Shown here in pieces: positions 19,607 through 56,919 of a stretch of 64,000 nt of DNA. The position numbers and the translations under genes are program-made. The stretch is from Jiangella sp. DSM 45060 (GTDB lineage: Bacteria > Actinomycetota > Actinomycetes > Jiangellales > Jiangellaceae). Location of the stretch: positions 5,910,622-5,974,621 of the forward strand of contig NZ_LT629771.1 in the NCBI RefSeq assembly GCF_900105175.1, written 5' to 3'. How positions within the stretch are numbered: position 1 is the stretch's first letter; each line of letters opens with the position of its first letter. The notes below the pieces were generated by a model. The model had not been told where the DNA came from and ran no database searches. It saw only the letters and a program-made list of their open reading frames with translations.

Positions 19607-20995
19607 ATGAAGCACCACACCATACGCACCCGCACCGTCCTCACCCTCGCGGCCGCCGCTTCCGGCGCCGCTCTCGTGCTCGCCGCGGCGGGCCCGGCGA
19701 GCGCCCAGGACCAGCCGCTCACCACCGAGAACCCCCGGCCCAACTCCGCGCCGCTGACCGGCGGCGACGCGGCCTACGAATATGCGCCGACGATCATCGC
19801 CGAGAACGGCGTGTACCGCATGTGGTACTGCGCCCAGGACCCCCAGGGTTCCGTGCCCGGCGACGACATCCTGTATGCGGAGTCGCCGAACCTCGACGGC
19901 CCGTTCACCGCGCCGGGCGGCGGCGACCCGCTGATCGTCTTCGAGGGCCGCGGCGACGGCGGCTTCGACGGCCAGCACACCTGCGACCCGTCGGTCGTCA
20001 AGGTCGACGGCACCTACTACATGTACTACGGCGCGGCCGTGAACGACGGCGCCACCACCGTCGGCGTCGCCCGCAGCTCCGACGGTCTCAGCTGGGAGCG
20101 CATGACCGACCAGCCGATCATCGCGCCGGCGAACCAGCAGGACACCGGCAACGACTACGGCGCCGGCCAGCCCAGCGTGACCTACCTCGACGGGCAGTTC
20201 TACCTGATCTTCACCGACACCACCGGCGCCGGCGCGCTGCCGACCAACGGCGCCGGGCAGTTCGCGTGGCGCTCGTCCGACCCGACGTTCGCCACCGGCA
20301 CCGAGGTGTTCACCGCCGACGGCTGGCAGGCGTCGACCCCGGAGAACTCGCGCGCGTTCTCCCTGGCCAACGCGTTCTCGGCCGACTGGCAGTACTCCGA
20401 CGAGCTCGAGTCGTTCGTCATCGCCCACAACAACGACGCCGGCCGCACGACGCTGACGTTCCTCGGCACCGAGAACCTCGCCGAGCACCCGTGGGCGCCG
20501 GTGAACATCGAGGGCCCGTGGGTCGAGGGCCCGGGCGTCGTGTCGACGCCGGACAAGCACGCCGTCGACGACAACGGCGGCGAGTGCGGCCGGGTGCCGG
20601 TCGACGTCATGCACGCGAGCCGGGCCGACGGCGTCCCGCCGCAGGACCTCGTGCACAAGGGCATCGACGTCGTCGCGCCGATCGAGTGCGAGACGCCCAC
20701 GCCCACCCCGACGCCGACCGAGGACCCGACCGACGAGCCCACCGAGGACCCGACGGAGTCGCCCACCGAGGACCCCACCGGCGAGCCGACGGACGAGCCC
20801 ACGGATGAGCCGTCCGAGAGCCCGACCCCGACGCAGGAGCCGACCGAGGACCCGACGCCGTCGCCGTCGCCGACCTCTGACGACGACCTGCCCGACACCG
20901 GCGCCGGCAGCACCGGCGTGCTGGTGGCGCTGGGCGCGGCCCTGGTGGCCGGCGCGGCGCTGCTGTACCGGTACCGCCGCGGCACGGTCGCGTAG
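19607..20995 (+). CDS. LPXTG-anchored GH43-like secreted protein
   Basis: 462 residues. Signal peptide at 1-34 (TLAAAASGAALVLAAAGPASA). The body carries repeated WYCAQDPQG, MYYGAAVNDGATTVGVARSSDGLSWERM and FYLIFTDTTG strands typical of five-bladed beta-propeller glycosidases (GH43/GH32/GH62 superfamily); catalytic acids cannot be assigned. A Pro/Thr/Glu-rich stalk of PTEDPTDEP-type repeats (about 360-420) leads to the sorting signal LPDTG, a hydrophobic helix and a basic tail RYRRG. Sortase should link it to peptidoglycan. It probably binds or cuts plant or microbial polysaccharide at the cell surface. A strong hairpin terminator follows. Confidence 0.85.
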   Translation: MKHHTIRTRTVLTLAAAASGAALVLAAAGPASAQDQPLTTENPRPNSAPLTGGDAAYEYAPTIIAENGVYRMWYCAQDPQGSVPGDDILYAESPNLDGPFTAPGGGDPLIVFEGRGDGGFDGQHTCDPSVVKVDGTYYMYYGAAVNDGATTVGVARSSDGLSWERMTDQPIIAPANQQDTGNDYGAGQPSVTYLDGQFYLIFTDTTGAGALPTNGAGQFAWRSSDPTFATGTEVFTADGWQASTPENSRAFSLANAFSADWQYSDELESFVIAHNNDAGRTTLTFLGTENLAEHPWAPVNIEGPWVEGPGVVSTPDKHAVDDNGGECGRVPVDVMHASRADGVPPQDLVHKGIDVVAPIECETPTPTPTPTEDPTDEPTEDPTESPTEDPTGEPTDEPTDEPSESPTPTQEPTEDPTPSPSPTSDDDLPDTGAGSTGVLVALGAALVAGAALLYRYRRGTVA

Positions 20996-47635: not shown

Positions 47636-48775
47636 GTGACGCGTGGCAGGAAGGCCGGCACGGGCGCGCTCATCGCCGTGCTCGCCGTCGCCGTGGTGTC
47701 GGCCGTGCTCATCGGCTGGAACCAGTTCGGCCGCGACGAGCCGGCGTCGGCCAGCCCGGAGCGGTCCGGCCAGACCGCGACGCCACCGGCCGAGGAGCCA
47801 TCGGACACCCCGACCCCGACGGCGACACCCACCCCGACGGTCACCCCGACGCCGACTCCCACCACCACGCCCACGCCGGAGGCGCTGATGGCCACCGGCG
47901 CCAGCGGCGACCAGGTGCGCGAGCTGCAGGCCCGGCTCAAGCAGCTGGAGTGGTACGCGCCCGACATCACCGGCGAGTTCGACGAGGTCACCGCCACCGC
48001 CGTCGCCGGGTTCCAGGGCAAGCGCGAGCTGCCGGCCACCGGCGAGGTCGACCAGGCCACCTGGGACACCCTGGTCGGGATGACGCAGACGCCCACCGAG
48101 GACGAGCTGAACAACGTGCTGACGCCCGGCCCGACCATCCTCGGCCCCGGCGACACCGGCGACCAGGTCCGCGAGCTGCAGGCCCGGCTCGAGCAGATCG
48201 GCTGGTTCAGCGGCGACGTCACCGACACCTACGGCGACACCACCACCGCGTCGGTCAAGGGCTTCCAGGACAAGCGCGGCTTCCCCGCCACCGGCGAGGT
48301 CGACCAGCGCACCTGGGACAAGATCGTCGAGATGACCCGCACGCCCACCGACGACGAACTGCACAACCGCGAGCCCGAGAACAACGGCGGCGACACCGAC
48401 GGCCTCGACCCGCGCTGCCTCACCGGCCGGGTGCTGTGCATCGACAAGTCGACGAACTCGCTGCGCTGGGTCGTCGACGGCGAGGTGCGCATGACCCTCG
48501 ACGTCCGGTTCGGCACCGACGAGCTGCCGACCCGCGAGGGCGCGTTCCAGGTGAACTCCAAGTCGCGCGACCACGTGTCGTCGCTGTACGACACGCCGAT
48601 GCCGTTCGCGATGTTCTTCAGCGGCGGCCAGGCGGTGCACTACTCGCCCGACTTCGCGGCCAACGGCTACAACGGCGGTTCGCACGGGTGCGTCAACGTC
48701 CGCGACCGCGACGCCATCGAGTCGCTGTTCGACCAGGTCAACGTCGGCGACGCCGTCATCGTCTACTGGTCCTGA
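47636..48775 (+). CDS. L,D-transpeptidase with two peptidoglycan-binding domains
   Basis: 379 residues. An N-terminal membrane helix ([19 protein letters not shown]) is followed by a Thr/Pro-rich linker, two PG_binding_1 repeats ([33 protein letters not shown], in part, at about 90-150, and a near copy at about 175-235) and the YkuD catalytic domain with SHGCVNVRD, His350 and Cys352. It forms 3-3 cross-links in peptidoglycan or anchors proteins, outside the membrane. GTG 47636 follows GAGGGGGAGGAA. It is divergent from mshA; a strong terminator follows. Confidence 0.92.
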
Positions 48776-50643: not shown

Positions 50644-51473
50644 GCCACTCGTCGGCGGCGCGCCAGCACCCCGGTGACGACGGCCAGCCCAGCCGCCAGC
50701 ACCACCGCGCCGAGCGGCGCCGTCCAGCCCGGGGAGGTGTCGAGCCCGCGGCCGCCGGTCTGCACGCCGCCGGCCGGGGCGTCCGGCGTGCCGGTGCTGT
50801 CCACGACCCCGACGACGCTCAGCGCGCCGTCCACGTCGAGGACGAAGAGCGTGTTGACGGTGCCGGCGGCGAGGTCGACGGAGGTACTCCCGGTGCCGGC
50901 GTCACTGCTGAGGTCGAGCGTCCAGCGGCCGCCCGGCACCTCGCTGTAGCCGGTCGCCGTCCCGAAGGCGGCGTCGTCGGCTAGGACCGTGCCGGTGTCG
51001 GTCGTGACGGTGACCGACGGCGACGAGACGGCGGCCGAGATCAGCCGCACGCGCGCCTGGCCCGCCGCCGGCGCCGTCAGGTCGTCGACGAGGATGCGGC
51101 CGGACAGCTCGGCGTTCAGGCCTACCGCGGCGACGGTGATCGCGACCCCGTCCTCGATCTCCACCGCCGCCGTGATGACCGGCTCGGAGTCCGCCGGCGC
51201 GCCGGCCGGGCGCATCGCCGCGGTGTAGGTGCCGGCGGGCAGCCGCGCGTAGCCGGACACGTCGCCGTAGCCGACGTCCTGCAGTTCCAGCACGGACTCG
51301 CCGTCGAGGCCGGTCAGGCTGACGTCGACCTCCGGGGTGTCCGGTGACAGGTGCGCCAGCCGGGCCCAGCCCGCGGCCGCCGGTTCCTCGCTCCCCTGGG
51401 CGCCGGCGGCGGTGCCGGCGGCCAGGGCGACGACTCCCACGGCCGTGGCCAGGGACCTGACGATGCGTTTCAT
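50640..51473 (-). CDS. DUF4397 secreted protein with C-terminal membrane anchor
   Basis: 277 residues. Signal peptide ending TAAGAQG near residue 26, then two DUF4397 Ig-like repeats (WARLAHLSPDTPEVDVSLTG and QARVRLISAAVSSPSVTVTTD start each), and a C-terminal helix with basic tail VLARRRRVA. No LPXTG is visible before the helix (TGGRGLDTSPG), so the adjacent sortase may use another signal or the protein stays membrane-bound. It lies between a GT-C-like gene and the sortase with 4-base overlaps on both sides. Confidence 0.85.
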   Translation of the reverse strand: MKRIVRSLATAVGVVALAAGTAAGAQGSEEPAAAGWARLAHLSPDTPEVDVSLTGLDGESVLELQDVGYGDVSGYARLPAGTYTAAMRPAGAPADSEPVITAAVEIEDGVAITVAAVGLNAELSGRILVDDLTAPAAGQARVRLISAAVSSPSVTVTTDTGTVLADDAAFGTATGYSEVPGGRWTLDLSSDAGTGSTSVDLAAGTVNTLFVLDVDGALSVVGVVDSTGTPDAPAGGVQTGGRGLDTSPGWTAPLGAVVLAAGLAVVTGVLARRRRVA

Positions 51474-53392
51474 GGGCTCTCCTCGGGATGCGGTGGGTCG
51501 GGGAGCAGACCGCGCGGTGCGGTCAGCGAGTACGTGGCGGTGACGGTGGTCCCGTCGGTGTCGACCTGCGACGGCGTGAACGGCGCCGGCTGCCCGAGCA
51601 GCCAGAGCGCCAGCCGGGCCGCCTCGTCCTCCGTCGGCAGGCCGGTGAGCACGAGCCGGCGACGCACCCCGGCGTCCTCGCCCGGCAGCGCGGGCAGCGA
51701 CACGCCCAGCTCGTGGGTGCCGGACAGCTTGCCCAGGACGATCACCAGCCGCGGGTCGACCCGCCCGGCCGCCGCGACGGCGCGCGCGGCGGCGTCGAAG
51801 GTCAGGGCGTCGTTGCGCAGCAGCTGGCCGGTCGCGTACCGGACCGTGTGCCGGTCACCCGCGGCGACCGCCTCGGCGACGTCGCGGCCGAGCGGGTGGA
51901 CCGCCCGGATCTCCACCCGGCCGTCGCCCTGCCCGAACGCCGCGACGACGGTCGACTCGGCCAGCGCGGACCTGATGTCAGCCCGGTCGGCGTCGTCGTC
52001 GCGCAGTGCCGCGGTCCACACGACGTAGTCGTAGTGGGTCCAGCCGGGCGGGCGCGGGTCGAACGGGCCGTCCTCCTGGACGTCGTCGTCCTCCTGGACG
52101 TCGTCGTCCTCCCGCGCGGCGGCGTCCGGGAAGCTGGTGAACGGCACCAGCCCGGCCGCCGCGAACCCGGACCGCAGCAGGTCCGCCCGCAGCGTCTGGT
52201 CGACCACCAGCCGGCCGTCGCGCGGCACGTTCGCCGTCAGCCAGCGCTCGGCCTGGGCGACCGGCGCGACCGGGTCGTCCCGCAGCAGCGGGCGCAGCTC
52301 GCCCGGCCAGGTCGCCGTCACCGCGACGACCAGCGCGGCCGCCGCGGTCGTCGTCATGATGGCCAGCGGCGTCGCCTCCGGCCGCCCGCGCACCGCCAGC
52401 AGCCGGACGACCAGCCGGTGCGCCGTCGCGGGCACCAGCAGGGCGGCCAGCGGGACCGCCGCGACCGGCAGCACGACCGGCACCGGCCCGCCCGGCACGA
52501 CGATCAGCAGCGCCAGCGTGATCAGCGCGGCCGCCGTCGGCCGCAGGGCCGGAAACAGCAGCGCTGCGCCCGCCGCGACCGGCCCGATCGCCACCAGGAC
52601 CGGATCCAACGCCCACCACCGCTCCGGCGCCGCACTGCCCAGGTCGTCCAGCGTCGCGAGCACGTACCCGTAGGCGCCGGCGCTGGCCGCGGCGGCCACC
52701 CCGGTCAGCGCGAGCCGCCACCGTCGCGCCGTCACCTGCTGCCACATCGTCCACACGACGAACGGCGCCACGACGACGAACGTGGGCTGCGTCAGCGCCG
52801 CCAGCAGCACCGCGACCCCGGCCGCCGGGAACGCGACGGGCCGACCTCGCCGCGCCGTCGCCAGGACGAACGCGAGCAGCATCCACAGCACGGCGACGTT
52901 CTCGGCCAGCACCAGCCGGTGCAGGTGCAGCGCCAGCGGCGACGCCGCGAAGATCACGACGGCGACCGCGGCGGCCGGCCGGGCCACCCCCAGGCGCCGG
53001 GCCAGCGCCCACATCAGGACGGCGCCGAGCAGCAGCACGACCAGCAGCGCCTCCCGCCCACCCCCCACCACGTGCGTCGCCCGGTCCAGCGCGCCGGCCG
53101 GCCCGGTCCACGCCGCCAGCTGGGCCGCGGCGACGCCGTTGGCGCCGTCGGTCACCTGGGCCATCAGGTCGCCCTCGGCCTCGGTGAACGCGGGCGAGCG
53201 GGTCATGCCGGCGGCGTGCACGAAGCCGGCCAGCGTCAGCAGCGGCGCCAGCCAGGCGAGGTCCGGGCCGTGCCTGCGGAACCAGCCGCGCACCCGGCGC
53301 GGCCGCGGCGGCCTCGGCTGCACCGGAATCGGCAGCCGCAGGTCGTCGAGGTCCGGCGGCAGCGCGGGCAGGGTCGTCACGGTGTCGCGCAA
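51470..53392 (-). CDS. GT-C-like membrane glycosyltransferase, putative
   Basis: 640 residues. A Pro/Arg-rich cytoplasmic start is followed by about 10-12 membrane helices and a soluble C-terminal domain of about 220 residues. The first outer loop has acidic SPAFTEAEGDLMAQV and a later loop HLHRLVLAENVAVLWMLLAFVLA, both at positions used by PMT/ArnT-type GT-C enzymes that transfer sugar from a lipid carrier; this is inference. A tandem EDDDVQ repeat interrupts the soluble part (52071-52112). First gene of a three-gene operon with DUF4397 and sortase. Confidence 0.7.
   Translation of the reverse strand: MRDTVTTLPALPPDLDDLRLPIPVQPRPPRPRRVRGWFRRHGPDLAWLAPLLTLAGFVHAAGMTRSPAFTEAEGDLMAQVTDGANGVAAAQLAAWTGPAGALDRATHVVGGGREALLVVLLLGAVLMWALARRLGVARPAAAVAVVIFAASPLALHLHRLVLAENVAVLWMLLAFVLATARRGRPVAFPAAGVAVLLAALTQPTFVVVAPFVVWTMWQQVTARRWRLALTGVAAAASAGAYGYVLATLDDLGSAAPERWWALDPVLVAIGPVAAGAALLFPALRPTAAALITLALLIVVPGGPVPVVLPVAAVPLAALLVPATAHRLVVRLLAVRGRPEATPLAIMTTTAAAALVVAVTATWPGELRPLLRDDPVAPVAQAERWLTANVPRDGRLVVDQTLRADLLRSGFAAAGLVPFTSFPDAAAREDDDVQEDDDVQEDGPFDPRPPGWTHYDYVVWTAALRDDDADRADIRSALAESTVVAAFGQGDGRVEIRAVHPLGRDVAEAVAAGDRHTVRYATGQLLRNDALTFDAAARAVAAAGRVDPRLVIVLGKLSGTHELGVSLPALPGEDAGVRRRLVLTGLPTEDEAARLALWLLGQPAPFTPSQVDTDGTTVTATYSLTAPRGLLPDPPHPEESP
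52071..52112. repeat. 18-bp tandem repeat inside the GT-C-like gene
   Basis: TCCTCCTGGACGTCGTCG occurs twice in tandem (52071-52088, 52089-52106) plus a third partial copy to 52112. It encodes EDDDVQ repeats on the minus strand and keeps the frame. Confidence 0.85.
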
Positions 53393-53600
53393 CGCCGACG
53401 CCTCCCCCCGAGGTGTCGCACAGACCTGCGCGCCGGCCCATGGCGCGGCGATGCCACGCCATGATCGCCAGGCAGGTCAGGCTCGCGGTTCCTGACCAGA
53501 AAGTCTTCGGCGGGAGTGTATACCTGAATGTGACTATGTGAGGCGAAATGTGGTGATTGGGTTCCGCGGTTGGCGGTGCGGGCCCTGTCAGTGCTCCGCT
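53393..53600. other. Promoter region of the GT-C-like operon
   Basis: No gene is seen. The part at 53500-53570 is clearly AT-richer, and the minus strand holds GTATACAC near 53517-53524, a possible -10 for the operon starting at 53392. Confidence 0.4.
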
Positions 53601-53720
53601 GGTCCGCCGGCAGGCCGCGCCGCTGGTCCGCCGGTGGGCCGCGCCGCTGGTTCCCCGGCGGGCCGCGCCGCGGGTACGCCGGTGGGCCGCGCCGCGGGTA
53701 CGCCGGTGGGCCGCGCCGCA
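53601..53720. repeat. Five 24-bp tandem repeats
   Basis: Units begin at 53601, 53625, 53649, 53673 and 53697 and follow GGTNCGCCGGTGGGCCGCGC-CGCN with up to five changes. The last two units are almost identical. They lie in non-coding DNA just upstream of the larger repeat array. Confidence 0.85.
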
Positions 53721-54047
53721 AGCGTTCGCCCGTGTGCACGTCGTCGCGGGCCACAGCGACCAGCGCCGCGCGAGTCTGTCGGTGCCCGCCCGTAGGGTGG
53801 GCACCCTCCCTAGAGGGGCGGGTCATACCTACCTCGCGCTGAGCAGCAACCGCACCACTGCCCTGCACTACAGCCACGCCCGCCGCCCGGCACGACTACC
53901 GCCGGGCACCGCCGTGCTACGCCCGCCGCCCGGCGCCACCGCTGCCCCGCACACCGCCGCCCCGCACCACCGCCCGCCGCCGACGCCGGGCGCGCTTGCA
54001 GCGCCGCGCGAGTCTGTCGGTACCCGCCCGTAGGGTGGGCACCCTCC

Positions 54048-55047
54048 CTAGATGTGATGTCCAGGGAGGTTGGTCAGCCGGGTGATCGGTGGCTGGCCTC
54101 CGATGGCGGAGTGGGGGCGGTGGTGATTATAGAAGTGCAGCCAGCCGGGCAGGGCTGTGTTGCGCTGGTCGGTTGACTCGTAGAGGCGTGCGTAGGCCCA
54201 GCCGTCGGCCAGGGTGCGGTGGAATCTCTCGATTTTGCCGTTGGTCTGCGGCCGGTAGGGCCGGGTCCGTTTGTGGACGATGCCGAGGTCGGTGCAGGCG
54301 TCGCGCCAGGCGTGGGAGCGGTAGCAGCTGCCGTTGTCGGACAGCACCCGTTCAACGGTGATGTCGTGGTCGGCGAACCAGGCCACCGCGCGGTGCAGCA
54401 CGCCGATCGCGGTGGTGGCTTTCTCGTCGGTGCAGATCTCGGCGTAGGCGACGCGGGAGTGGTCGTCGACGACGGTGTGCACGAACGCGGTGCCGGTGCG
54501 AGGGTCGTGGCGGTGGTTGCGCTGCCCGGTCCTGTTCGCCGTGGCTTCTCGGTTCTTGTCGCCTTGCTGGCGTCCGAGGAAGCGGTGCCCGCCGCCGTCG
54601 GGGATGTTGGGCGAACTTGGTCACATCGACGTGGATCATCGAGCCCGGGTGCGGGTGTTCGTAGCGGCGCAACGGTTCAGCGCTGACCCGGTCGATACGG
54701 GCAAGCCGGTTGATCCGGCACCGCACCAGCACCGCGTGCACGGTCGACGCGGGCATCCCGAGCCGGCCAGCGATCTGGACCGGACCAAGCCGATGCCGCC
54801 ACCGCAGCCGCACGATCCGCCGCACCACCTCCGGCGTGGTCCTGGTCGGGCTCGAGTGCGGCCGCGAGCTACGATCGGCCATCCCCGCAGCACCTTCGCT
54901 GCGGTAGCGGTCGGCCCACTTCTTCGCGGTGCGCGCAGCGACCATGAACATCTTGGCCGCGGCGACGTAGGTCCAGCCACGATCGACGACCAGCCGAGCC
55001 AGCCGCAGACGGGCACGCGGGGTCAGAGCAGCGTTAGCGTGGGACAC
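54048..55047 (-). pseudogene. IS481-type DDE transposase, frameshifted
   Basis: The N-terminal helix-turn-helix region (LTPRARLRLARLVVDRGWTYVAAAKMF, in part, and VRRIVRLRWRHRLGPVQIAGRLG) and first catalytic Asp (MIHVDVTKFA) are in one frame; one extra C near 54611-54614 moves the rest (NIPDGGGHRFLGRQQ, HTVVDDHSRVAYAE, second Asp in VLSDNGSCY, Glu in NGKIERFHRTL) to another frame. Removing that base restores a full family protein of about 333 residues. The GTG start at 55047 gives VSHANAALTPR. The stop TAG (54050-54048) is outside the element, in the duplicated target CCTAGA. Confidence 0.9.
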
Positions 55048-55162
55048 GAGGGCCTCCGGTCGATGAAGCGGTGAACTAGACAGCTCCACTTCACAACCGG
55101 AGGCCTTCACCTGTCAGCCAGGCTCACCAACACCGGGCGGCACAACCTCCCCGGACATCACA
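54053..55162. mobile_element. IS481-family insertion sequence, 1110 bp
   Basis: Terminal inverted repeats of 20 bp with one mismatch: TGTGATGTCCAGGGAGGTTG at the left end (54053-54072), and TGTGATGTCCGGGGAGGTTG read from the right end (55162-55143). The target duplication CCTAGA is at 54047-54052 and 55163-55168 and lies inside one 82-bp repeat, whose uninterrupted copies have a single CCTAGA. It carries one transposase gene, broken by a frameshift. Confidence 0.95.
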
Positions 55163-55531
55163 CCTAGAGGGGCGGGCCATACCTACCTCGCGCTGAGCAG
55201 CAACCCCACTACCGCCGCCCCGCACCACCGCCCGCCGCCGCCCCCCAGCCCGCTTGCAGCAACCGTGCGAGTCTGTCGGTACCCGCCCGTAGGGTGGGCA
55301 CCCTCCCTAGAGGGGCGGGTCATACCTACCTCGCGCTGAGCAGCAACCCCACCACCGCCGACACCACCGCCCGGCGCACCCGCCGGCCCCCAGCCCGCTT
55401 GCAGCACCGCGCGAGTCTGTCGGTACCCGCCCGCAGGGTGGGCACCCTCCCTAGAGGGGCGGGTCATACCTACCTCGCGCTGAGCAGCAACCCCACTACC
55501 GTCCGGCACGACCGAGGGGCGGGCCCGGCGA

Positions 55532-56332
55532 TCAGGCGGTCGGCAGGTCGATCAGCATGACGGGGTCCGTGGTCGGCTGCGGCGACCCGCCGTCCGGTTC
55601 GACGGTGATGCCGAGCCGGTCGGCGCCGGCGAGGCCGCGGGCGGTGAAGGGACCGACGTGGCCGTCGGGGGGGTTGCCGAGGACGCCGGCGGACACCACG
55701 CCGCCGTCGTCGTGCATGAACCACAGCTGGTAGGTGTGCCCGGCCGGTGCCGGCGCCATGCCGTCGCCGATGAACACGGCGACGTCCAGCGAGCGCGCCA
55801 GCAGCACGGTGCCGCTGCTGTCGCCCTCGCCGACCCGCACCATCTCCATGTCCTCCGCACCGACCAGTTGCCGCATCTGGGCGCCGATCTGCTGCGACCG
55901 GTCGAGGTCGGACTGCACGTCGTTCAGCCGGATCCCGAGCACGACGATCGCCGCCACGGCCGCTGCGGCCAGGCCGGTCGCGACCCGCGGCCACCAGCGC
56001 CGCAGCGCCCGCCCCGCGGCAGAACCCGACCCTGCAGCAGAACCCGACCCCGCGGCAGAACCGAGCGGCGTCGACCCCGCCGCAACCCGCGGCGGCAGCG
56101 GCCGCACCTCGGCGATCCGGGCGAGCACCTCCTCACGCATCCGCGGCGGCGGCGTGACGGCGGCGGCGACGCCGAGGCGGGCGGCGGTCTCGCGCAGCTC
56201 GTCGACCTCGACGCGGCAGTCGGCGCACTGTTCGAGGTGCTCCTCGAACCGGCTGACCTCGTCCGGCGGCAGCGCGTGCAACGCGTACGGCGCGGCCAGG
56301 GTGTGGATTCCGGCGTCCACGTGCTCGTTCAT
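55532..56332 (-). CDS. rskA: Anti-sigma-K factor RskA-type
   Basis: 266 residues. The N-terminal zinc-binding anti-sigma domain has HALPPDEVSRFEEHLEQCADC, with the H-x3-C-x2-C motif; a GSAAGSGSAAG linker, one membrane helix (VATGLAAAAVAAIVVLGI) and an RskA outer domain (TYQLWFMHDDGGVVSAGVL, in part) follow. It holds SigK inactive until regulated proteolysis. ATG 56332 overlaps the sigK stop by four bases. The 82-bp repeat array begins 40 bases beyond its stop. Confidence 0.92.
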   Translation of the reverse strand: MNEHVDAGIHTLAAPYALHALPPDEVSRFEEHLEQCADCRVEVDELRETAARLGVAAAVTPPPRMREEVLARIAEVRPLPPRVAAGSTPLGSAAGSGSAAGSGSAAGRALRRWWPRVATGLAAAAVAAIVVLGIRLNDVQSDLDRSQQIGAQMRQLVGAEDMEMVRVGEGDSSGTVLLARSLDVAVFIGDGMAPAPAGHTYQLWFMHDDGGVVSAGVLGNPPDGHVGPFTARGLAGADRLGITVEPDGGSPQPTTDPVMLIDLPTA

Positions 56333-56919
56333 CGCCCCACCCCCATGCAGTCGCGCAGCCGGGCGAGGCCGTCGCGCAGCCGCGTCTTGACCGTACCGAG
56401 CGGAGCATGCAGCAGCTGCGCGACCTCGCGATACGTGTAGCCGTCGTAGTAGGCCAGCGCGATCGACTCGCGCTGCAGCCCGGTCAGCGAGTCGAGACAG
56501 CGGCGTACCTGTTCACGCTCCACGTTCGCCTCCACCTCGTCGGCCACATGGTCGTAGGGCCGCTCGTCGTCGCGGCGGGCGGCGCGCTCCTCGCGGTCGC
56601 TGCCGGCCTGTTCGCGGCGGACGCGGTCGACGGCGCGGCGGTGGGCGATCGTGAGGATCCAGCCGCGCGCGCTGCCCCGCTCGGGCTCGTACCGCGACGC
56701 CGTCCGCCAGACCTCGACCAGCACCTCCTGGGCGACCTCCTCGGCCAGCGCCCGGTTGCGGACCACCGTCGTCGCGATGCCCAGCACCGGACCGGCCATG
56801 CTGTCGTAGACCTGCTCGAAGGCGGCGTGGTCGCCGCGGGCACAGTGGTCGAGCAGCCGGCCGAGCCGGTCGCCCGGCGGCTCCGGCTCACCCGCCGGCA
56901 CCGATCGCAACGTCACCAT
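56329..56919 (-). CDS. sigK: ECF sigma factor SigK
   Basis: 196 residues. Region 2 has DHAAFEQVYDSMAGPVLGIATTVVRNRALAEEVAQEVLVEVWRTA (in part) and region 4 CLDSLTGLQRESIALAYYDGYTYREVAQLLHAPLGTVKTRLRDGLARLR (in part). Identification as SigK rests on the neighbours: rskA, FAD oxidase, DUF1365, cyclopropane synthase and DUF1295, the set found at the M. tuberculosis sigK locus. ATG 56919; an in-frame GTG is one codon inside. Transcribed from a promoter that shares its motif with the divergent operon, implying autoregulation. Confidence 0.92.
   Translation of the reverse strand: MVTLRSVPAGEPEPPGDRLGRLLDHCARGDHAAFEQVYDSMAGPVLGIATTVVRNRALAEEVAQEVLVEVWRTASRYEPERGSARGWILTIAHRRAVDRVRREQAGSDREERAARRDDERPYDHVADEVEANVEREQVRRCLDSLTGLQRESIALAYYDGYTYREVAQLLHAPLGTVKTRLRDGLARLRDCMGVGR

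Follow-up and report, generated by a model that had tools for sequence, protein, structure and literature searches.

An intergenic repeat array of Jiangella probably belongs to a genus-specific, REP-like family with an orphan PafBC-type promoter sequence in its core

The Correia elements of Neisseria are promoter-bearing MITEs, small repeats dispersed between genes, and for most REP-like repeats no regulatory input is recognised. The text of a REP survey names no actinobacterial family (PMC3733652). The published PafBC (RecA-NDp) promoter reads tTGTCRgtg, 8 nt, TannnT (PMC5656591). A 64,000-nt stretch of the chromosome of Jiangella sp. DSM 45060 (NZ_LT629771.1, positions 5,910,622 to 5,974,621; the window) was analysed here. 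Four repeat units lie on its plus strand, in the gap between rskA and a membrane-protein-like gene (51470-53392). We consider it likely that this array is a cluster of a Jiangella-specific, REP-like dispersed repeat, which has as its core an orphan promoter of PafBC type, immediately followed by a GC dyad, and which is homogenised by gene conversion. Genes were called on fetched regions with an ad hoc codon-usage gene finder, and genomic copy positions are those among the matches listed, the first 100 places per search. The features of the locus are as follows.

51470..53392, minus strand: membrane-protein-like gene without Pfam match, flanking the array opposite rskA
53777..53833, plus strand: core of unit 1 (57 nt), from the sequence and the alignment of copies
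53777-53798, plus strand: promoter part of unit 1, TGTCGGTG-CCCGCCCG-TAGGGT, perfect RecA-NDp consensus (PMC5656591)
53804-53822, plus strand: GC dyad of unit 1, CCCTCCC-TAGAG-GGGCGGG
54015..54052, plus strand: left part of unit 2 (38 nt), promoter TGTCGGTA-CCCGCCCG-TAGGGT and start of the dyad, ending in the CCTAGA duplication
54053..55162, minus strand: IS481-family insertion sequence (IS) of 1,110 bp, from its terminal inverted repeats (TIRs), target site duplication (TSD) and LZ_Tnp_IS481, rve and rve_3 domains
55163..55187, plus strand: right part of unit 2, the TSD copy and the last 19 nt of the core
55274..55330, plus strand: core of unit 3, promoter part TGTCGGTA-CCCGCCCG-TAGGGT
55418..55474, plus strand: core of unit 4, promoter part TGTCGGTA-CCCGCCCG-CAGGGT
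55532..56332, minus strand: rskA (anti-sigma-K factor), 3' end toward the array
56329-56919: sigK, after rskA

The initial annotation had rightly counted four units in the gap beside rskA and had recognised that they are much more conserved than their spacers. The unit length of 82 bp that it gave holds locally, as a product of tandem duplication, but not for the family, in which the common part is a core of about 57 nt (TGTCGGTGCCCGCCCGTAGGGTGGGCACCCTCCCTAGAGGGGCGGGTCATACCTACC) that is almost invariant and sharply bordered, with unrelated flanks. Likewise, its period of about 144 bp describes the last two start-to-start spacings (143 bp after removal of the IS and one TSD, and 144 bp) but not the first (238 bp). 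The 1,110-bp insertion in unit 2 had been overlooked and counted as gap. Box and -10 are perfect in one of the four units, unit 1; units 2 and 3 deviate at the weak last g of the box, and unit 4 deviates there and in the TA. The promoter of unit 4 is probably weakened, because its -10 TA is changed to CA. The same intergenic space contains, upstream of unit 1, a 24-bp tandem repeat of 5.2 copies (CCGCTGGTACGCCGGTGGGCCGCG, 53596-53719). Elsewhere in the window, a 252-bp tandem duplication (1.9 copies, 79% alike, 47890-48367) lies within the predicted gene 47636-48775, and a 12/24/36-bp tandem repeat of the GCCGACCGAGGA type (20713-20875) probably encodes a Pro-Thr-Glu-rich protein stretch.

The insertion in unit 2 belongs to the IS481 family by its IS481-type transposase, its TIRs (TGTGATGTCCrGGGAGGTTG) and its NCTAGN duplication, CCTAGA at 54047-54052 and 55163-55168. 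The transposase is spread over two overlapping minus-strand frames (55110-54352, 252 aa; 54482-54048, 144 aa) and could be frameshifted or made by programmed frameshifting. A second genomic copy, in opposite orientation at 5577385-5578504, is reported as 100% identical over the IS; this copy and a relative in the congener G004 (L038) occupy the same base of other repeat copies. IS481-type elements are known to duplicate NCTAGN (PMC2516522). In an 800-kb sample (L357-L396), CTAG was about 15-fold under-represented (132 observed vs 1,939 expected), and the repeat carries one CTAG, in CCTAGA. The IS probably landed in the repeats because CCTAGA is one of the few CTAG sites in the genome, and CTAG scarcity may generally funnel IS481 elements that target NCTAGN into them. 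The CCTAGA duplication, the NCTAGN rule and the scarcity of CTAG therefore explain the insertion, which is no part of the array's function. In G004 a further repeat copy (L404:2042-2100) is broken at this TAGA too; the intruding sequence differs (TGAGTGAGTCC...) and may be an additional insertion element that uses the site.

The window array is a local cluster of an element present about 170-200 times in the genome. A 25-nt core with up to 3 mismatches was found in 185 copies on the 7.49-Mb chromosome and a reversed control pattern in none, which places the array beyond chance. The exact pattern TGTCRGTG-N8-TANNNT gave 198 sites (reversed control, 0); the congeners G003 and G006, both free of the 25-mer, had 29-34 such sites, and other genera of the family had 3-26. 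A count of copies in related genomes, which the initial annotation had proposed, traced the core to 9 of the 11 congeners and to no genome outside Jiangella in a set of 118 from the class (own included). A 30-mer was present 153 times in the own genome, 2 to 91 times in carrier congeners and not at all in G003 and G006. Named genomes bearing the core, among the matches listed, were all Jiangella (J. muralis, endophytica, ureilytica, rhizosphaerae and anatolica).

The elements have an extragenic, 3'-end location. In an unbiased sample of 864 kb, they occupied 8 of 43 convergent, 7 of 146 tandem and 0 of 122 divergent gaps (p = 2e-4), and none fell within a predicted gene. Of the 81 intergenic clusters in the element-centred set, 42 lay between convergent genes, and 12 of 129 copies were called inside predicted genes, which may in part be gene-finder error. 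The same preference was seen in other species, where convergent, tandem and divergent gaps accounted for 24, 29 and 3 cases, compared with background numbers of 25, 101 and 84, respectively. Tandem copies were arranged head to tail. Orientation within tandem gaps was unbiased (16 vs 14), and no strand bias by chromosome half, in the style of Chi or KOPS, was detected. Near the unit at position 1136368 of the chromosome, a tandem repeat with a 14-bp period (TGTAGGTGAGCCGG) was observed (L380:16437-16500).

The core reads TGTCRGTG-CCCGCCCG-TAGGGT, which fits the PafBC consensus exactly and varies between A and G at the R position; the motif appeared in 0 of 300,000 shuffles of the core. Downstream of pafA, the host encodes a WYL protein and an HTH_PafC-WYL protein (PafB- and PafC-like). 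Dyad-free sites of the same motif numbered 15 in the fetched regions, and 13 of these precede a gene start on the same strand, mostly 6-8 nt before ATG or GTG (leaderless). The genes behind them include radA, recA, uvrB, uvrC, an AlkZ-like glycosylase and a DEDD exonuclease, and the spacers of the repair-gene sites differ from CCCGCCCG. In contrast, among the dyad-bearing sites (143 of 160 motif sites in fetched regions), a gene start followed within 150 nt in only 11, always at 75-121 nt, and on this ground the units were rejected as plain gene promoters. The ratio of 143 to 15 overstates the genome-wide excess because the sampled regions were element-centred. Judged from sequence, the genome seems to carry many more such damage switches than damage-response genes. 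Among the three proposals of the initial annotation (a multi-hairpin RNA, a protein-binding array and a decaying repeat peptide), the protein-binding array comes nearest, in that each unit carries a PafBC-type promoter sequence.

For a non-circular test, the genome was searched with nothing but the dyad of divergent subfamilies (GCCCACCCGGCCGGGAGGGG), the box being left out of account, and 59 genomic matches were obtained. An exact box and -10 stood in the right place in 36 of them and a weak one in 2, and in 17 the box TGTCRGTG was replaced by GTTCAC-N5-GTTCAC, 12 nt before the -10. The remaining 4, with neither by the strict pattern, comprised two reverse strands of a counted palindrome, one degenerate GTTCAC copy and one match in coding sequence. 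Across 11 different 8-nt spacers, the box varied only at R and at one T, the TA and the final T were constant, and nnn varied, which is the published degeneracy of the PafBC promoter. The first REP-like stem (CCCGCCC/GGGTGGG) was lost in several divergent subfamilies, and box and -10 were kept. That box and -10 outlast both the spacer and the first stem is what most strongly favours a promoter over a plain palindrome.

The GTTCAC units form a smaller class, in which GTTCAC-N5-GTTCAC or GTTCAC-N5-GTTAAC precedes the same -10 and dyad. They also occur in tandem arrays, and their direct repeats resemble the PHO box (PMC4415409). Units of this class were located on the chromosome (G000:C1) as follows.

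770106-770513: GTTCAC-class units
2049009-2049281: GTTCAC-class units
2094663-2094899: GTTCAC-class units
2298320-2298903: GTTCAC-class units
2967255-2967829: GTTCAC-class units
4424294-4424810: GTTCAC-class units

A single GTTCAC-type match outside the repeats (L323:2014-2048, minus strand) lies directly before a class II DAHP synthase gene, whose GTG follows the -10 by about 7 nt; this is not a known Pho gene.

The dyad, CCCnCCC-loop-GGGnGGG, starts 4-7 nt after the -10 in all 168 dyad units, a position that coincides with, or slightly precedes, the start site deduced from the leaderless genes. Its central pair is mostly mismatched, some counts varying with how the loop is drawn, and the single variable position within the stem is mostly a mismatch. 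An Rfam covariance-model search of the unit gave no match up to E = 10, and a known RNA family was rejected accordingly. Folding stability downstream of the predicted start did not exceed that of shuffled sequences (mean z -0.25, 48 types). Given the mismatched central pair and the unexceptional RNA stability, a selected RNA helix is not supported, and the multi-hairpin RNA was not upheld. Of the nested inverted repeats that the initial annotation had ascribed to each unit, the outer ones (GCGCGAG/CTCGCGC) are no feature of the family: the left and right flanks of 15 unlinked copies matched each other no better than they matched shuffled partners (p = 0.44). G-quadruplex formation by the GGGnGGG runs was discarded as a general property, since divergent subfamilies lack the first run. 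The dyad is possibly a DNA dyad, a terminator or a pause site, and a short RNA could still be made from the unit promoter.

At the window locus, four units are present here, one in G004, one in G010 and none in seven other congeners. Among 40 element loci of G004 and G010, a clear orthologous region was available for 30, with an element on both sides in 28 and none detected on either side in 2; most own-genome regions in this comparison had been chosen for holding elements, and four comparisons in unbiased sequence agree. In 30 orthologous element pairs, TA and the final T had no mismatch, and the rate per site was 0.8% in TGTC, 3% in N8, the spacer, and 10% at R. It was 24% over positions 23-57, and the flanks shared about 68% identity. 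The high divergence of the 3' half arises because one dyad type has been replaced wholesale by another at the same locus. Such swaps between conserved flanks were clearest in L388 vs L415 and L120 vs L409, and further cases were L370/L410 and L372/L433; compared with both G004 and G010, the own genome carries a new dyad type at L090. A gene-conversion-like exchange, for which the common 25 nt and the common ACCTACC end would serve as anchors, would explain the swaps.

The reading we favour builds on the sequence match, the PafBC and regulon promoters of the host, the location, the orthologous sharing and the dyad swapping, and would add promoter activity, short transcripts, an exchange mechanism and an effect on the damage response. 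Single-stranded DNA formed after DNA damage would activate PafBC, and RNA polymerase with SigA would be recruited to the orphan promoters as at recA or radA. Transcription would start at the dyad and yield a non-coding RNA only, expected to be short because no gene lies behind and a GC dyad stands at the start. Copies between the 3' ends of genes would do little harm there. Units would multiply locally, head to tail, and gene-conversion-like exchange between loci would swap the dyad half and leave the promoter half.

Some observations speak against this reading. The spacer of the main family is itself conserved, like a REP stem (TGTC followed by GGTGCCCGCCC-GTA-GGGTGGGCACC), so that a TGTC-tagged REP could by itself account for the motif match; unit positions avoid gene promoters, in the fashion of REPs; three of the four window units deviate from a perfect box or -10; conversion, and not selection, could have kept the promoter half alike; and the dyad has its mismatched central pair and its ordinary RNA stability. 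The units might be ordinary REP-like palindromes, TGTC-tagged as others are CGTC- or GTAG-tagged, whose role would not go beyond bidirectional termination or the stabilisation of mRNA 3' ends and whose match to RecA-NDp would be incidental. Their intergenic position, preference for 3' ends and avoidance of divergent gaps match REPs (PMC3733652), the main family folds into an 11-bp stem preceded by TGTC, and tandem gaps show no orientation bias. However, divergent subfamilies without the first stem keep box and -10 at fixed spacing, a GTTCAC repeat can stand in for TGTCRGTG before the same -10, and DNA-repair genes of this genome have the same motif as their promoter. Moreover, a profile search of the genome for RAYT (Y1 transposase, PF01797) gave no match, the controls being detected, and the arrays run head to tail without inverted dimers, by which a RAYT-REP system was rejected. 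We judge the palindrome reading to be quite improbable. Unlikely as well are MITE-like non-autonomous elements moved by an as yet unrecognised transposase. Sharp core borders, unrelated flanks, patchy copy numbers and empty sites orthologous to the window locus in seven congeners would suit such elements, but TIRs (p = 0.44) and TSDs (flanking direct repeats, p = 0.16) were not significant, which led to the rejection of a MITE. No Y1 transposase gene was found, and copies are mostly common to orthologous sites in G000, G004 and G010, at mostly ascertained loci. The initial annotation had named scattered copies of a known REP or MITE family as evidence against its view; copies are indeed scattered genome-wide but fit no known family of either kind.

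A lesser but real possibility is that the units are adaptive damage-response elements, either very short RNA genes or decoys that titrate activated PafBC-RNA polymerase off the regulon and thereby damp the response. Orphan sites exceed dyad-free regulon-type sites about 9 to 1 in element-centred regions and several-fold genome-wide, the promoter half is kept in three species (G000, G004 and G010) whose flanks diverge, and the dyad sits at the predicted start in 168 of 168 dyad units. Against this, copy number ranges from 0 to 185 among congeners, so that the elements are dispensable, and no conserved RNA extends past the dyad, RNA stability being ordinary. A broader version, in which some 170-200 gene-less, activator-dependent promoters of PafBC type and GTTCAC-repeat type with swappable dyads form a decoy or short-RNA layer that shapes the damage response and is kept by gene conversion, appears doubtful. 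Most remote is a minus-strand gene for a decaying tandem-repeat peptide, which was rejected by comparison of copies. The RBS-like GAGGTAGGTATG and the 48-codon frame that had suggested it do exist at units 3 and 4, where GAGGTAGGT-ATG is followed by an open frame through units 4 and 3, because these two units happen to sit 144 bp apart. They are not kept in other copies: only the distance from unit 3 to unit 4 is divisible by 3, other spacings and unrelated flanks are found elsewhere, the ATG is missing in other subfamilies, and frame and start differ between copies.

With an orphan PafBC-type promoter preferred, a repeat confined to one genus conserves the full sequence of a stress-activated promoter, in several times more copies than the genome's own regulon. 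Should the copies be active, transcription would begin at some 200 intergenic places upon DNA damage, and transcription-factor titration by dispersed repeats would be directly testable. The swap of palindrome halves at fixed loci beside an unchanged promoter half is a natural experiment in the concerted evolution of dispersed bacterial repeats. The elements may benefit the cell, through decoys or short RNAs, or may be tolerated by it. In the open-access literature searched for Jiangella repeats, and for PafBC together with repeats, no description of the element was found.

Several known systems invite comparison. The insertion in unit 2 is like ISLxc2 of the IS481 family in size, ends, transposase domains and NCTAGN duplication, with no important difference. 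The PHO box consists of two 11-nt direct repeats with a GTTCACC core under PhoP control; the 17 GTTCAC units found here have GTTCAC repeats at 11-nt spacing. Like Correia elements, the Jiangella units are small, dispersed, intergenic and provided with a promoter, but they are without TIRs or target duplication, and their promoter is of an activator-dependent, damage-responsive type. With GTAG- and CGTC-tagged REPs and BIMEs (PMC3733652), they share short length, extragenic position in convergent and unidirectional gaps, GC palindromes and high copy number. In the main type TGTC precedes the 11-bp stem, and this stem is absent in divergent subfamilies; the units differ in that the genome has no RAYT gene, in the head-to-tail arrangement instead of inverted dimers, and in an activator-type promoter box that outlives the palindrome sequence. 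The units would work like orphan RecA-NDp promoters, with a distribution like that of REPs. They resemble the RecA-NDp (P1) promoters of the actinobacterial PafBC regulon, with which they share the box, the 8-nt spacer, TAnnnT and a host with PafB and PafC, and from which they differ in having no gene behind, a conserved CCCGCCCG spacer in the main family, a GC dyad at the start site and 170-200 copies, partly arrayed.
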